Position numbers and translations under genes: made by a program
Shown: positions 5,336 to 11,804 of the stretch, piece after piece
Position numbering within the stretch: the stretch's first letter is position 1
Layout of the letters: every line of letters begins with the position of its first letter
Notes under the pieces: generated by a model
The model's input: the letters and a program-made list of their open reading frames with translations, nothing else
What the model was told of the DNA's origin: nothing
Database searches by the model: none
NCBI GenBank assembly: GCA_014360995.1
Contig: JACIWL010000001.1
Location: 1 to 64,000 of the forward strand
Source: Candidatus Bipolaricaulota bacterium
GTDB lineage: Bacteria; Bipolaricaulota; Bipolaricaulia; Bipolaricaulales; Bipolaricaulaceae
Reading direction: 5' to 3'
Length of the DNA: 64,000 bases

Positions 5336-5411
5336 GGCGGCGTAGCCAAGCGGTTAAGGCGAGGGACTGCAAATCCCTTATTCCCCGGTTCGAATCCGGG
5401 CGCCGCCTCCA
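5336..5411 (+). tRNA. tRNA-Cys (GCA), CCA encoded
   Basis: Cloverleaf GGCGGCG...CGCCGCC; anticodon loop around GCA; TTCGAAT T-loop; CCA at 5409-5411. Confidence 0.95.
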
Positions 5412-5488
5412 GGGTGGTTAGCTCAGCCTGGTAGAGCACACGCTTGACGTGCGTGGGGTCGCAGGTTCGAGTCCTGCACCACCCACCA
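5412..5488 (+). tRNA. tRNA-Val (GAC), CCA encoded
   Basis: Acceptor GGGTGGT/ACCACCC; anticodon stem CACGC/GCGTG, loop TTGACGT; CCA at 5486-5488. Confidence 0.95.
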
Positions 5489-5544: not shown

Positions 5545-7242
5545 TTACTTTTCTGTCCCTTCTTGCCAGTAAGCTGGGCGTGGGAATTTGATCTTTATGG
5601 GCTGGCGGAAGGTGGCGTGGCTGATGACCAGTTCACCCTTTTCCAGGCGTGTGACATTCGCCTTAACCGCCGGATCCAGGAAACGATAGGCAGGGGATGA
5701 AAGTTCAACGGAGCCGCTTCGACCAATAACTATCGTTGAGCAGTTGCCTGCTACGCGGTCATGCACTGCGCTCATAAACTGCTCGGCACCGAAAAGCACC
5801 ACCCCCAGCGAACGACCGCGCTCTGCAATGTCCAGCACTTGCTCTATGATGGGGGATTCTTTCTCTCTCGCGGGTGCGTATTTGTTCAACTCGTCCACAA
5901 AGATAATCACCTTTTCTGGCAAATCTTCCCTTTCGCTGCCCTCTTCCGCGTACAAAGCATAGATCGTGCGCAGAATATCGCCAAAGACCAGAGTCTGCTC
6001 CTCGTCGGTAAGGCGAGCGATGTCCACGACGATTGTCTCGCCGCCGCGGATCGTGGCAATCTCTTGGCTAAGATTTTTTGTCCTTTTGTCGCGCTGATCC
6101 ACAAAGATTCCGGACTGGCGGGTCTGCACGATGCGGCGCAGCAATCGGCGGAAGCGCCCGACCGATACCGCGCGCACATCGCCCACCGGCTGGACCTGTC
6201 CCTCTTTCACCAACGGCTCACCGTTCAGTAAACTCTCCCAGTCGGTAACGCTCTTCCATTTACCCTGCGGCCCCCAATGTCCAGTCCTGGGATCGGAGAG
6301 CCCCTGCTGGATCTCGCCGATCAGGGCACCCACCGTATCCCAGGGATCGGGAATGTTGGACAGAAGCAGGTCTAATTTATCGTAGGTATCTGCCAGCGAG
6401 TAGGCGTAGAGGAACCAGTTGCGCTCCGGCAGGCGGAAACTGTTGGGCCTGCCGGTTGTGGGAGTCTCTTTTCCGTAGGGCAAGAGGTAGCGCACGTTGT
6501 CAAACGGCTTGGGCCTAAGTCCAAGCGCTTCCCAAAATTCATGCTGCTCTGGAGGTAGCCCTCCCTTAGGTGGCTGGTCAATCGAGAGCAAATCGCCGTG
6601 CTTGACGTTTAGGATGATGACACCGATGCGGTTGCGATTCTCCGCTTTCTGGAGAATGGACTGGATGAGGAAGATCGCATACGAGGTTTTCGTCGCCAAC
6701 CCGGAGATGCCGGTGATGTTGACGTGCGCGCCTTCCGGTCCCAGAATGTAGCGGCTGTCCAGGTACACCACGGCACGGGTACCGTTGGACATCTCAATGA
6801 GCCCGGCAGGTATCCGGTAGCGCTCCGGCACCTGGTCAATCCCCAGGGCCGTATGGATCCCCTGCTCGTCGGCGAAGCGCACGGGGCGATCGTTCATCAC
6901 CGGCATGTAGATGTCCTGGTCATTGGAGAGAACCGCAACGCGTGCCACCGTAGTCCCCTGCCGCACGGTGTTGGGCTCCGCAGTGATTTGCCCGAAATCG
7001 TTGGAAATGTAATTGGATAGGTGCGTAGGCGCATCGGTACTGTGCTCCAACGTGGTCACAATGCCAAAGGTGCGACTCGTCCCTTCTGGAGCAACCTGTT
7101 CCGCTTCCACGATATCAAAAGGGTTGACAATGACATTGGGTGCAAGCCAGAAGGAGAACTCATTGGATGTGTTGGGCTGGTTTGCGGTCGCCGATGAAAG
7201 CCCAATGATTGGGCGTTCGTCAGTCATCATCTCGTTAGCCAT
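5545..7242 (-). CDS. HerA/DUF87-like ATPase (translocase)
   Basis: Walker B VIIFVDELNKYAP; HerA-like LGVVLFGAEQFMSAVHDRVAGNCSTIVIGRSGSVEL sensor/Arg-finger region; atypical P-loop ITGISGLATKTSYA; downstream of a NurA-like gene. Confidence 0.75.
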   Translation of the reverse strand: MANEMMTDERPIIGLSSATANQPNTSNEFSFWLAPNVIVNPFDIVEAEQVAPEGTSRTFGIVTTLEHSTDAPTHLSNYISNDFGQITAEPNTVRQGTTVARVAVLSNDQDIYMPVMNDRPVRFADEQGIHTALGIDQVPERYRIPAGLIEMSNGTRAVVYLDSRYILGPEGAHVNITGISGLATKTSYAIFLIQSILQKAENRNRIGVIILNVKHGDLLSIDQPPKGGLPPEQHEFWEALGLRPKPFDNVRYLLPYGKETPTTGRPNSFRLPERNWFLYAYSLADTYDKLDLLLSNIPDPWDTVGALIGEIQQGLSDPRTGHWGPQGKWKSVTDWESLLNGEPLVKEGQVQPVGDVRAVSVGRFRRLLRRIVQTRQSGIFVDQRDKRTKNLSQEIATIRGGETIVVDIARLTDEEQTLVFGDILRTIYALYAEEGSEREDLPEKVIIFVDELNKYAPAREKESPIIEQVLDIAERGRSLGVVLFGAEQFMSAVHDRVAGNCSTIVIGRSGSVELSSPAYRFLDPAVKANVTRLEKGELVISHATFRQPIKIKFPRPAYWQEGTEK

Positions 7243-7248
7243 ACTGCC

Positions 7249-8379
7249 TCACCTCCACTTCAGGTATTGCTGAATCACCTCGCGAGAGAGAAGGCTTTCC
7301 TTAACCGCCCGCTCGGCAAGGAAAATGTGATACAGATGGGCGTGCCAACGGCGGTCCAGCCCGTGAGGCGTTACCTGGCGCTCTGCCACTAAAGCACATG
7401 AGAGCCTGTCAATCAGCTCGGAGGGCACTGGCTCTGCAGTCGGATTGACCAGCTCCACCTTGACGACACCCATTAGCGGGTAGTCCAGATGCCGTTGTTC
7501 CCGTAGCCGAACATACCAGAAAACGACCTTGCCATCGCGAGCCCTAAAGGCAGCCGTGCGATGCTCTGCCTCTAAGCCCGCCAGCAATTGATAAATGGAG
7601 CGACACTCTGCGCGCGGACCGCGACCGAAGACAAACTGCGGGTCTTTGCGAAAATTCTTTGACACCCCAATCACTGGCCTGATTCTCTCGCCAGCGCTCA
7701 AACTCTGGAGCACGGGGTCAAACATCAGCGAGCCGTCCGCGATGAGCCAGGAGTTTTCGTCCAGTTTGTCCAGGAGGCTGCTTATCATTTCCGCTTCCAA
7801 CTTCCGCATCTCAAACTGTACTTTACCCATTGCCTTGTTACGCAGGTCAAAGTCTGATAGCACCTGGCTGACGATGTCCCTTTCCGTCAAGTCCACCAGT
7901 CTAACGGCGCTCTGCGAGGAAAGAGCTTCCAATCGGGCCCAGACCGTTTCGGAAAGCCGCTGCCTGCCTACCAGCAGGATATGGTCTACCCGCAAAGCTT
8001 CCCGCCGCACCGAGCCATCATCTTCCCGTCGCAGGACGCAGGCGCCGATTTGCGCGTAGTGCACCGGCGATTCCCGCTCGTTTTCCAGCACCGTGCCGAG
8101 AAAGTAGGAGCGAAATGAGCCGTCAAGGAAGTAGCGAAAGAGAAGCTGCTTTGTGCGCCCGGCGGGGGGCACAGGACGATACATAGGCGGCCTTGGGGTT
8201 GAAGGGTCATGCTCGAAAATCGTTTCAAAGACTTTTTCGTCTTCATTCAGCAATTGATCCTCGCGCTCTTCAAAATCGGGGCGTTCCAAATCCTCCACGG
8301 CGCCACCCACGGCGGGGAGGACCTCCACATCCTGTGCGATGGCTCGGAGGATGTGACGGAGCTCTGGCAAAGCATTCAT
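7249..8379 (-). CDS. NurA-like nuclease
   Basis: RYFLDGSFRSYFLG and WLIADGSLMFDP Asp-Gly motifs, PVIGVSKNFRKDP, YPLMGVVKVELVNP; start ATG overlaps the upstream stop (ATGA); paired with HerA. Confidence 0.7.
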   Translation of the reverse strand: MNALPELRHILRAIAQDVEVLPAVGGAVEDLERPDFEEREDQLLNEDEKVFETIFEHDPSTPRPPMYRPVPPAGRTKQLLFRYFLDGSFRSYFLGTVLENERESPVHYAQIGACVLRREDDGSVRREALRVDHILLVGRQRLSETVWARLEALSSQSAVRLVDLTERDIVSQVLSDFDLRNKAMGKVQFEMRKLEAEMISSLLDKLDENSWLIADGSLMFDPVLQSLSAGERIRPVIGVSKNFRKDPQFVFGRGPRAECRSIYQLLAGLEAEHRTAAFRARDGKVVFWYVRLREQRHLDYPLMGVVKVELVNPTAEPVPSELIDRLSCALVAERQVTPHGLDRRWHAHLYHIFLAERAVKESLLSREVIQQYLKWR

Positions 8380-11300
8380 TCTTCTTCCCCTCCCTCCTGT
8401 TCTTCCCGACCCAACTCGCGCAGGCTGCGCTGGATCTCCGCCAGTTCCTCGTCGCTCAGGCCCCACAATTGGGCGGCGTGACGGTCAATTTCGGTTTCAA
8501 TCTGGCGCAGGGCACGCTCATCACCGCGCCGGGCCGCCTCGTGCGCCTCCTGCGACAACTCCGCCAGCCGCCGATGCACCGGGTTGGACGGGTCGTAGCG
8601 GGGGATGCGAATCCGCTCAACGACCTGCGGTGATGCAATCCCACCACCACCGCCCGGGTACGATGAGATAGCAGCAAAGTCGGCTGGCTTCGAATTGAAA
8701 CACGCACAGAAAAAGTGCGCTTCCTCGGCGCTGTCGAAAGCGACCAGCGAAGTGTTGTGCTCAGGCACAATGACTTTGCCAGTGTCATCGGTGCCGATCA
8801 CTGCTGCCACCAAACTTGGAGAGATCCAAGGCCACACCACCTTCCACGGGGCGAAGGTGTAGTCGCCGACGGCAAACATAGTATAGAACGGTGCACCCTG
8901 CTTCAGCATGTCAGAAACACCACGGGAAGCACGCTCCCGTAGCACTTCCTCAAACCGCTTAAGGTAACCGTAAGTGCGCGGGTAGCGCGTCTGCAGATCT
9001 TTTTCGTCTATGCCGCGCCGCCTGAGCGGATCCTGCACCATCAGGATCATCGCCGATGGCTCCGCCCGCCAGCGCCCCACATCCCGCCCGCGCAAGAGGG
9101 GATAGAGCAGGTCCGGTTCCATCGCCTCCGTCACCTCGTCCACTTGGACCTTCGCCCCTTCGGTCAGGTTGCGCACCACGACCAGGCCATCGGGACGGCG
9201 ATAGACAACCTCCACCCAGTAGACGGCGTTGGCGCCACCGGTGTATACACCTGCGTGGGCTTCATAGTCGGATTTACCGAGGATCTTGCGCACCGCCTGG
9301 AGCGCCTTGGGGCGGGCGGTGAGCCAGGGAGAAGTCGGGTCGGTGGGATCCACGGGCTCGGCGAAAAAGTTCAGGCGCCGGGTGGCCGCCACCACCTCCT
9401 CCAGGGTGCTCTCGTACGTGAAGCGAGCGCCCTTCCGCTTCCGCCAAACGGTGTAGGGCACGGGATATTTGGTCGGCCTTCCCTTCTCCAGCACCATCAC
9501 CGCTGTGCGGTTGGAGGCGCCCTCAAAGGGATTGAGGTCCACCATATCGTCCACGTGGACGGAGGCGAGAAGCGTCGGCGCCTGATTCCGGTGGGGAATC
9601 TGGAATCGCCGAAAGCCCTGCCCAGCCCCCGAAGTCTTGAAGATTGACTGGGTGATCACAAAACCGAGTTTCCCGCCCGTTTTGAGCAAACGGTCTACAA
9701 CGGTAAAGGTCATCAGCATGGAGATGTCTTTTTTCCCCTTGCCGAGAATCGTGTCCATTCCGCCGTGCGGGAATAGTCCGTACTTCTCCCAAATCGGTTT
9801 TATCTCATGCCGATACTTATCAGGGAGATGCTCCCAGTTGACCCAGGGCGGGTTGCCGACTATGTAGTCAAACTCTCCGACAGTGAGGGGGGCGAAGTTG
9901 TTTTTCAGCAGGCGCGCCCAGAGGCCGTTCAGCCCCTGACGGTGTAGGTCCAGCATTGTTTCGTAGAGGTCTCTTAAGAAAGCCTTGTCCCGCTCATCTA
10001 AGGGGCTTTCTGAAGGGAGACGGCTTTGCACCTGATGGACGAAACTTTCCGGGCTGATCCCGCTCCGCACGCTATCTTCCAGCAGGTTCGTGAACCAGTC
10101 AAAGTGCTCCTTTGTGCAAAGTTTTTCCGGCACGAGGAATTCGCCGACAGCAGTCGGGAACCTGTATGCGCCCTGCGCAGGCAGGTCCTCGCCTAACGAT
10201 GGGGTGCGCACCGAATCGGCCAGGTAAACGGGGATGGTGATCTCGCCGCGGCGGTGTTCCAGCAAGTCAGTGATGGCCAGCAAGTAGTTCACGCGGGCGG
10301 TGAGCACTGCCAGCGGGTTCAAATCAAAGCCCACCACATTGCGCAGAATGCTCTCCAGCAGTTCCGATTCGGGAACGAGAAGCGCTCGCCCCAGTTCCAG
10401 CATGCGCGCGATGATGAGGACAAGGAACGTGCCCGAACCGCAGGCAGGGTCAAGAAAACGAGTGTTCATGAGCTTTTGGCGCATCCTGCCTTCGTTCTTG
10501 CTGGGGTTAGCAGTGAAAAACTCGCTATCTAACTGCACCAGCAACCTTTGTGCCAGCCAATCAGGCGTGTAATACTCGCCGAGGCTATGGCGTATTTCTC
10601 GCGGTAAGAGGTAGTGGTAGAGTTTTTTGAAGAGGTCCCGGGTCTCTTCGGGCACGAGGGTCAGGGTCGTCGGATCGTATTCGTTCAGCCGCTTGATCAC
10701 TTCGCGAAGGGCGTCCTCTATTTTGTCGTTCCAGGCATAGAGGTACCAGGAGAAGAAGTCGCCCTCCAAGAGGTTCGTGATTCCGTAGGCGCGGAAGATG
10801 CCGCCCGATTCCATCTCTTGCAGTTGGCGGCGCAAGGTTTCCCCATCAGCGGCCGCTAGCCCAGAGAAAGAGAGGGCACCCAGCCGGACACCCAAGTGAC
10901 GAGAAAGGGCCAGCCAGGCCAGGAGTTTGACCAGAAGAGCGAAATAGGTGTGTAGGACGAAGAAGAACCGCTCCGCCTCTTCCGGGGTGCGGACTTCCAG
11001 TGCTGCCTTGCGCACCCACTTTTTCAGGGGCTCCAGTTTCCGGCCGCCGAAGGCCTCGGAGTAGTCAATCGCTTCACTGAAGAAGATCTTCCACTGGTGG
11101 AATAACTTCGGTACAAGTCCTTGGGGGTTTTTCAAAGCAACTTCAAGGGCCTGAAACAACCTTCGGAGCACGTTCTGTGTGCGCATCTGCTCAATGGAAA
11201 AATCCTGGTTGAGGTTTTCTGAGGTAAGGGCGATACCTGAGGAAAGTCCCGCCAGCCAGGTCAAGAAACGCTCCAAGGAATGCACGTTGACCGCTACTGG

Positions 11301-11720
11301 AGGCTCCACAATCCAATGTCCGCCAATGAAGCGGACAAAAATGAAAAAGTTCCCATCGAAGACGACCCCGGCGAGACGGTCTATCTTTTGCCGTTCCCTT
11401 TGGGCAAGGCCGATCATGTAGTCTCTCACTTGCTGAATGGCATGCCGAGTTGCTGAATCTGGAGGGGATTTAAGTACACCGGGTCTTTCGTATTCGATCA
11501 CGAACCTATTGAAGACCGCATCGGCACGTCCAGTGGCTAAGGTGTACTCGGCGTGGGCGATGGGGTGGACTCCGATGTCCTCGCAGAATTCGGTAAGAAG
11601 GGGGTCTATTTCGCGGCGGAAATCTGCTTCAGTGAGCTTTCGGGGAAGAAGCTCTTCCAATCGCCTTTGAATCTTCTGACTCCAATCCTTAATGAGGCGT
11701 TCCCGGTCCTCGAACTCCAT
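8376..11720 (-). CDS. Eco57I-like N6-adenine DNA methyltransferase / type IIG-like restriction-modification protein
   Basis: MTase motif I DPACGSGTFL, motif IV NPPW, C-terminal specificity-like region; N-terminal PD-(D/E)xK-like GRADAVFNRFVIEYERPG with downstream QQVRDYM. Confidence 0.85.
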   Translation of the reverse strand: MEFEDRERLIKDWSQKIQRRLEELLPRKLTEADFRREIDPLLTEFCEDIGVHPIAHAEYTLATGRADAVFNRFVIEYERPGVLKSPPDSATRHAIQQVRDYMIGLAQRERQKIDRLAGVVFDGNFFIFVRFIGGHWIVEPPVAVNVHSLERFLTWLAGLSSGIALTSENLNQDFSIEQMRTQNVLRRLFQALEVALKNPQGLVPKLFHQWKIFFSEAIDYSEAFGGRKLEPLKKWVRKAALEVRTPEEAERFFFVLHTYFALLVKLLAWLALSRHLGVRLGALSFSGLAAADGETLRRQLQEMESGGIFRAYGITNLLEGDFFSWYLYAWNDKIEDALREVIKRLNEYDPTTLTLVPEETRDLFKKLYHYLLPREIRHSLGEYYTPDWLAQRLLVQLDSEFFTANPSKNEGRMRQKLMNTRFLDPACGSGTFLVLIIARMLELGRALLVPESELLESILRNVVGFDLNPLAVLTARVNYLLAITDLLEHRRGEITIPVYLADSVRTPSLGEDLPAQGAYRFPTAVGEFLVPEKLCTKEHFDWFTNLLEDSVRSGISPESFVHQVQSRLPSESPLDERDKAFLRDLYETMLDLHRQGLNGLWARLLKNNFAPLTVGEFDYIVGNPPWVNWEHLPDKYRHEIKPIWEKYGLFPHGGMDTILGKGKKDISMLMTFTVVDRLLKTGGKLGFVITQSIFKTSGAGQGFRRFQIPHRNQAPTLLASVHVDDMVDLNPFEGASNRTAVMVLEKGRPTKYPVPYTVWRKRKGARFTYESTLEEVVAATRRLNFFAEPVDPTDPTSPWLTARPKALQAVRKILGKSDYEAHAGVYTGGANAVYWVEVVYRRPDGLVVVRNLTEGAKVQVDEVTEAMEPDLLYPLLRGRDVGRWRAEPSAMILMVQDPLRRRGIDEKDLQTRYPRTYGYLKRFEEVLRERASRGVSDMLKQGAPFYTMFAVGDYTFAPWKVVWPWISPSLVAAVIGTDDTGKVIVPEHNTSLVAFDSAEEAHFFCACFNSKPADFAAISSYPGGGGGIASPQVVERIRIPRYDPSNPVHRRLAELSQEAHEAARRGDERALRQIETEIDRHAAQLWGLSDEELAEIQRSLRELGREEQEGGEEE

Positions 11721-11804
11721 GGCACTTTTTAGTTTATATGCCAGGCAAAAGGGCTGGCAAGTGCTTCAAATGAGGGGAATTGTCCTAGCAGGAAATTTGA
11801 AAAC

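Follow-up and report, generated by a model that had tools for sequence, protein, structure and literature searches.

A chromosomal Type IIG restriction enzyme–NurA–HerA cassette, probably of the tdtA type, in a Candidatus Bipolaricaulota genome

Why should a restriction-modification enzyme share an operon with a ring-shaped DNA translocase and a nuclease, and what does such an operon do with DNA? We addressed this question for a three-gene cassette on the minus strand at positions 5545–11720 of the window, i.e., the whole 64-kb stretch of DNA that was analysed. The open reading frames (ORFs) of the cassette encode a Type IIG enzyme, a NurA nuclease and a HerA translocase. An earlier note had read it as a candidate defence cassette, catalogued or not, in which a methylase that marks self DNA guides a translocase-nuclease. 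The junction of the enzyme gene and the NurA gene reads GAAGAATGAATGCT, where the stop of the enzyme overlaps the start of NurA by 4 bp (ATGA), and the NurA stop (7249) is separated from the HerA ATG (7242) by 6 bp. The tight minus-strand unit described earlier is seen directly in the sequence, and the three genes likely form one transcription unit. A weak candidate for the operon promoter region lies on the same strand at 11721–11784; its sigma-70-like match (TTGCCA-18-TAAACT) ends 10 bp ahead of the enzyme ATG, and 4 promoter-like sites were found against 2.0 expected by chance. An ordinary ThiS-like gene is located upstream of the cassette. Past the 3' end of the operon lie tRNA-Cys and tRNA-Val (5336–5488, plus strand), and the 3' end of tRNA-Val is 56 bp from the start of the cassette interval.

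The first gene (8376–11720, minus strand) encodes a protein of 1114 aa that was assigned to the TspDTI subfamily of Type IIG/IIC restriction-methylation enzymes using its ORF, PADLOC, motifs and fold matches. Two full-length PADLOC models were matched, PDLC03580 at 1688 bits and PDLC03630 at 1434 bits. A PD-(D/E)XK nuclease, a helical linker, an N6-adenine methylase and a C-terminal specificity domain (approximately residues 791–1045) are arranged in a single chain, with DPACGSG at residue 424 and NPPW at residue 623. The AlphaFold model (pLDDT 86.5) matched the adenine methylases CamA and M.BseCI, followed by BrxX, DrdV, MmeI and BpuSI. We considered whether the nuclease site is dead and cutting is left to NurA. 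However, the nuclease residues D67, E76 and E78 form a D-EXE site, and E78 matches the published D-EXE of active TspDTI; since this is the published form of an active enzyme, the window enzyme was not rated inactive and the dead-site reading was rejected. D67 and E76 were invariant in all 34 full-length members, whose third residue was either E (19 members) or K (15 members). The atypical D-EXE site, DPACGSG and NPPW are described for the TspDTI/Tth111II/TthHB27I/TsoI subfamily (PMC3384240), with which the window enzyme shares these motifs and the layout of approximately 1100 aa, its activity being predicted. Judged from its sequence, the enzyme is a full Type IIG restriction protein that carries a nuclease site of its own and is more than a marker. 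The coupling of a marking methylase to a translocase-nuclease, as proposed earlier, found support.

The second gene (7249–8379, minus strand) starts with the ATG at 8379 and encodes a protein of 376 aa. An alternative longer ORF with a GTG start spans 7249–8466; homologues fit the ATG at 8379 instead. Sequence models barely reached NurA. The Pfam model PF09376 gave E=0.042 and 13.8 bits, under its gathering score of 21, which is a detection threshold and no biological property, and the same model matched 8 of 37 homologues at E<=0.1. A profile search against Deinococcus NurA gave E=2.5e-4. In Foldseek, the AlphaFold model (pLDDT 88.7) aligned best with Deinococcus NurA (7f6d_G; 360 columns, E=3.6e-11), followed by the Thermotoga putative nuclease TM1739 (1zup, 1.5e-8), and no others were below 0.04. 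D86, E195, D215 and K241 were kept in at least 76 of 77 homologues, and the DGS (twice) and GVSK motifs named earlier are present. The predicted structure thus settled that the protein belongs to the NurA family and has the NurA fold, despite the Pfam miss.

The third gene (5545–7242, minus strand) encodes a HerA/TdtA-like ATPase of 565 aa. Its best solved relative is Deinococcus HerA (7f6d_B, 2.4e-43; 8.8e-49 with a two-sequence profile), with which it has in common the unusual P-loop GISGLATKTS. The Walker B motif reads VIIFVDELNKY, of which DELNKY is nearly invariant among homologues; the DUF87 model of Pfam (PF01935) was not reached. The sequence identifies the protein as a HerA translocase, for which a hexamer and ATP-driven translocation are predicted. 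The earlier identification of all three proteins was confirmed, as were the motifs it had named. The HerA-NurA pair of Deinococcus radiodurans (7f6d) has the same NurA fold and a similar HerA sequence, including the P-loop (GISG-x-ATKTS); however, it has been studied as an end-resection machine, and the publications consulted describe no Type IIG partner for it.

A published operon contains the same gene set. In Thermus thermophilus HB27, the integrative element ICETh1 carries Tth111II/TthHB27I (TTC1877; Type IIG, 1106 aa), a NurA-like protein (TTC1878; 377 aa), TdtA (TTC1879), which is a HerA/FtsK-type hexameric ATPase, and an N4/N6 methylase of 410 aa (TTC1880) (PMC5365140). DNA donation by HB27 was abolished without TdtA, decreased by 4–5 logs without the NurA-like protein and decreased by approximately 3 logs without the Type IIG enzyme (PMC5365140), and it was later proposed that cuts by the Type IIG enzyme feed TdtA and NurA (PMC7767461). 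The tdtA operon and the window cassette have the same three core genes, order, strand, near-zero spacing and enzyme subfamily, and both are located at a tRNA gene. In contrast, ICETh1 has the TTC1880-type methylase, a XerC-like integrase and 47-bp att repeats, none of which accompanies the window cassette, and its insertion point is the tRNA-Ile 3' end, whereas the window cassette lies beside tRNA-Val.

T. scotoductus DSM 8553, named as a carrier of a tdtA-like cluster (PMC5365140), was recovered as locus L017; its proteins are identical to those of the window at 86% (HerA), 69% (NurA) and 67% (IIG) of positions. Both loci have the order IIG-NurA-HerA and neither has a methylase downstream, but they differ in the specificity region of the enzyme and in genomic context. 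The first 35 residues of the L017 enzyme equal the published TspDTI N-terminus, and the enzyme has none of the three predicted TspDTI specificity loops. Given this link and the described architecture, with HB27 compared by its description only, the window triad may be orthologous to TTC1877–1879. We regard the cassette as a probable tdtA-type operon that resides in the chromosome. Novelty, which the earlier note had made dependent on the lack of a named counterpart, is therefore lost to the published tdtA operon of ICETh1 (PMC5365140, PMC7767461), and an uncatalogued defence system was not borne out. The defence role did not hold as stated either, since gene deletion in HB27 ties the operon to DNA donation (PMC5365140, PMC7767461); for the window cassette, defence is possible.

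The cassette was also compared with named antiphage systems. No complete named system was found in PADLOC 2.0.0, where only the Type IIG enzyme reached full-length models and the NurA of the triad has no model. The DUF4297-HerA antiphage system also pairs a HerA-type ring with a nuclease; however, its nuclease is DUF4297 and it has no methylase, whereas the partner in the window is NurA, and the HerA of 8xau is distantly similar (E=0.0018). The likeness to MADS was partial, with the methylase region similar to mad2 (1e-14) and the HerA C-terminus similar to mad8 (8.9e-9) of PADLOC. Membership in MADS was rejected, as only these partial matches were found and the operon contains no other mad genes.

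We then considered the genomic site. No integrase was found in the cassette interval, no flanking direct or att repeats were found, and the fourth gene (an N4/N6 methylase of approximately 410 aa downstream of HerA) is absent from the ORFs of the window. Because there is no tyrosine integrase and there are no direct repeats of a tRNA 3' end, the window cassette was not filed as an ICE. The content of the tRNA site differs in sister genomes. In G018, a congeneric sister genome (L112, G018:C101, 4484–18052), the interval from tRNA-Val to the same amidohydrolase gene is taken up by a different operon; it encodes a DpdE-like helicase (577 bits), a DrmMI/IIG-like methylase (269) and a DruE-like helicase (306). 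The content of the site therefore changes, and it can accommodate defence-like genes. A simple empty site was not obtained from sister genomes: most have the two flanks on separate contigs, and G018, where both are on one contig, has the other operon between them. HerA of the cassette type was found in 1 of 100 genomes of the host phylum, one marginal match aside, indicating a probable horizontal acquisition of the cassette. Both comEC and dprA are present in the host, as in most control genomes, so DNA uptake is possible.

To determine how widely the gene set occurs, one genome per species was scanned and 80 loci were obtained. In clade A (46 loci; HerA approximately 54–89% identical), a Type IIG gene lies beside HerA in 42 loci from many phyla. 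Three of the four remaining loci end at contig edges and the fourth (L027) has a helicase gene instead. The order is IIG-NurA-HerA in 32 loci and NurA-HerA-IIG in 10, and a few loci have broken genes or an inserted gene between them. Pairwise identities were correlated over 28 loci (HerA-NurA, 0.66; HerA-IIG, 0.66), with none of 2000 permutations as high. The conserved methylase-NurA-HerA triad anticipated earlier is thus observed in this survey, as well as on a phage contig. That contig (L005; IMGVR_UViG_3300045912_000930), from a phage or prophage, has an IIG-NurA-HerA-methylase operon adjoining a dNMP phosphatase and a minor tail gene, together with phage replication and tail genes. The four-gene form with the N4/N6 methylase was found at eight genome loci and on this viral contig. 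The triad on a 6.4-kb contig of a Clostridiales MAG (L018) is almost the same as the T. scotoductus one, which would reflect misbinning or a very recent transfer. Around triads elsewhere, in a scan without a control set, the neighbours were mostly ordinary genes, with 3 integrases among 113; the integrase candidates that were scanned among the neighbours of other loci were no integrases.

The partners of NurA-HerA vary. Clade B (34 loci, mostly from gut Clostridia; HerA 33–39% identical) has NurA-HerA without a Type IIG gene. In these loci (L055–L091), and likewise in L145 and L146, with two viral contigs among the carriers, the genes after NurA-HerA encode an Hsp90-like HATPase protein (Pfam E=2.7e-8) and a protein that contains a radical-SAM cysteine motif, an arrangement for which our literature search found no published description. 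All seven loci of the order NurA-HerA-IIG with enough downstream sequence (L030, L036, L041, L043, L048, L050 and L087) carry a radical-SAM-type gene downstream, with Pfam matches to B12-binding and Radical_SAM in those scanned. The same motif test flagged none of the next four same-strand genes at loci of the order IIG-NurA-HerA. One of the seven loci (L048, 7015–12291, Caldisericales) combines the partners of both clades, as NurA-HerA-IIG is accompanied by spore-photoproduct-lyase-like, HATPase and radical-SAM-type proteins. On plasmids, only distant HerA relatives and no NurA matches were found; four such plasmids of Cyanobacteria, Chlorohelix and Streptomyces (L007, L008, L009 and L010) have SbcD- and SbcC-type genes downstream of HerA.

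The enzyme also occurs alone. A related Type IIG enzyme (58–61% identical) is present in seven other genomes of the host's family, with NurA-HerA absent from the stretches examined. All six solo enzymes that were checked are D-EXK, and in the tree the solo enzymes group together as sister to the 16 triad enzymes that are closest to that of the window. These copies indicate that the enzyme is a separable module and that its coupling to NurA-HerA is not obligatory.

We propose a 'break and pump' mechanism for the window cassette and, taken together with its assignment to the tdtA-type family, regard it as fairly probable. The Type IIG enzyme would methylate adenine in an asymmetric site and nick or cut unmethylated copies at a distance, an activity that has been shown for relatives in the TspDTI subfamily and is suggested for the window enzyme by its motifs only. 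The HerA ring and NurA would then load on a DNA end, and the duplex would be pumped through the ring while NurA trims it, as shown for the Deinococcus and archaeal HerA-NurA and by analogy expected of the window pair. We infer that breaks made by the restriction enzyme would serve as loading sites for HerA-NurA; if so, the methylation state would decide which DNA is processed. The HB27 genetics suggest that the enzyme is coupled to HerA-NurA, and so do the conservation of the linkage and the way in which the three proteins diverge in step. As the output, donation of DNA to competent neighbours has been demonstrated in T. thermophilus HB27 only.

For the window cassette, we put donation at about an even chance, restriction of incoming DNA at somewhat under that, and repair or clean-up as improbable. 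The cassette encodes no export channel, which counts against our proposal, as do the missing fourth gene, integrase and direct repeats and the existence of solo enzyme copies. A dedicated antiphage or anti-plasmid restriction function, which we consider plausible but short of even, would put the same machine to a different output: the Type IIG enzyme would cut an unmethylated invader and HerA-NurA would degrade it from the cut ends, and Thermus donation would be secondary or a side effect. The DpdE-, DrmMI/IIG- and DruE-like operon at the tRNA-Val site of G018 and the rarity of the cassette in the phylum (1 of 100 genomes) favour this explanation. The same applies to the phage-borne operon and to the variability of specificity: within the enzyme, parts of the specificity domain (926–1025) rank with the segments of lowest conservation, and the TspDTI specificity loops are missing from the T. 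scotoductus protein. Exchange of partners, such as SbcCD with HerA on plasmids and HATPase plus radical SAM with NurA-HerA in Clostridia, points the same way, as do triad neighbours that match AriA, CARF-HEPN, type IV REase and RT defence models in the scan without a control set. However, that scan returned mostly ordinary genes, PADLOC catalogues only the enzyme of the triad in full, and the sole genetic study reports donation. A broader proposal is that IIG-NurA-HerA represents a restriction system that is widespread but has escaped recognition, with a ring translocase-nuclease fed by methylation-controlled cuts and donation in Thermus as a by-product, and that the NurA-HerA and B12/radical-SAM-type variants, with or without the Hsp90-like ATPase, belong to the same defence family; we hold this only tentatively.

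Alternatively, NurA-HerA may act as insurance, repairing or clearing breaks that a leaky Type IIG enzyme leaves in the genome of its host. Archaea and Deinococcus use HerA-NurA for end resection (PMC9960219), and cleavage by Type IIG enzymes of the Thermus family is incomplete (PMC3384240). As the earlier note stated, Mre11/Rad50 is not present in the 64-kb window, and SbcD was not found in the recovered host genome (86% complete). Nevertheless, we regard this explanation as unlikely: solo enzyme copies persist in relatives without NurA-HerA, and what has been described for HB27 lacking the NurA-like protein or TdtA is a defect in donation (PMC5365140). Chance adjacency of the three genes was rejected as extremely improbable: apart from the solo Type IIG copies nothing favours it, and against it stand the linkage at 42 of 46 loci in two gene orders, across many phyla and in a phage, and the correlated divergence.

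Taken together, many bacterial phyla harbour a transjugation gene set whose study has so far been confined to one Thermus species, and a phage genome carries it too. The breadth of the triad, its phage-borne copy, the contrast of solo and coupled enzymes and the radical-SAM-linked variants are the main additions made here. This spread makes it testable whether methylation-controlled cuts by the restriction enzyme may serve as loading sites for HerA-NurA, and whether the product would be exported DNA or destroyed invader DNA.
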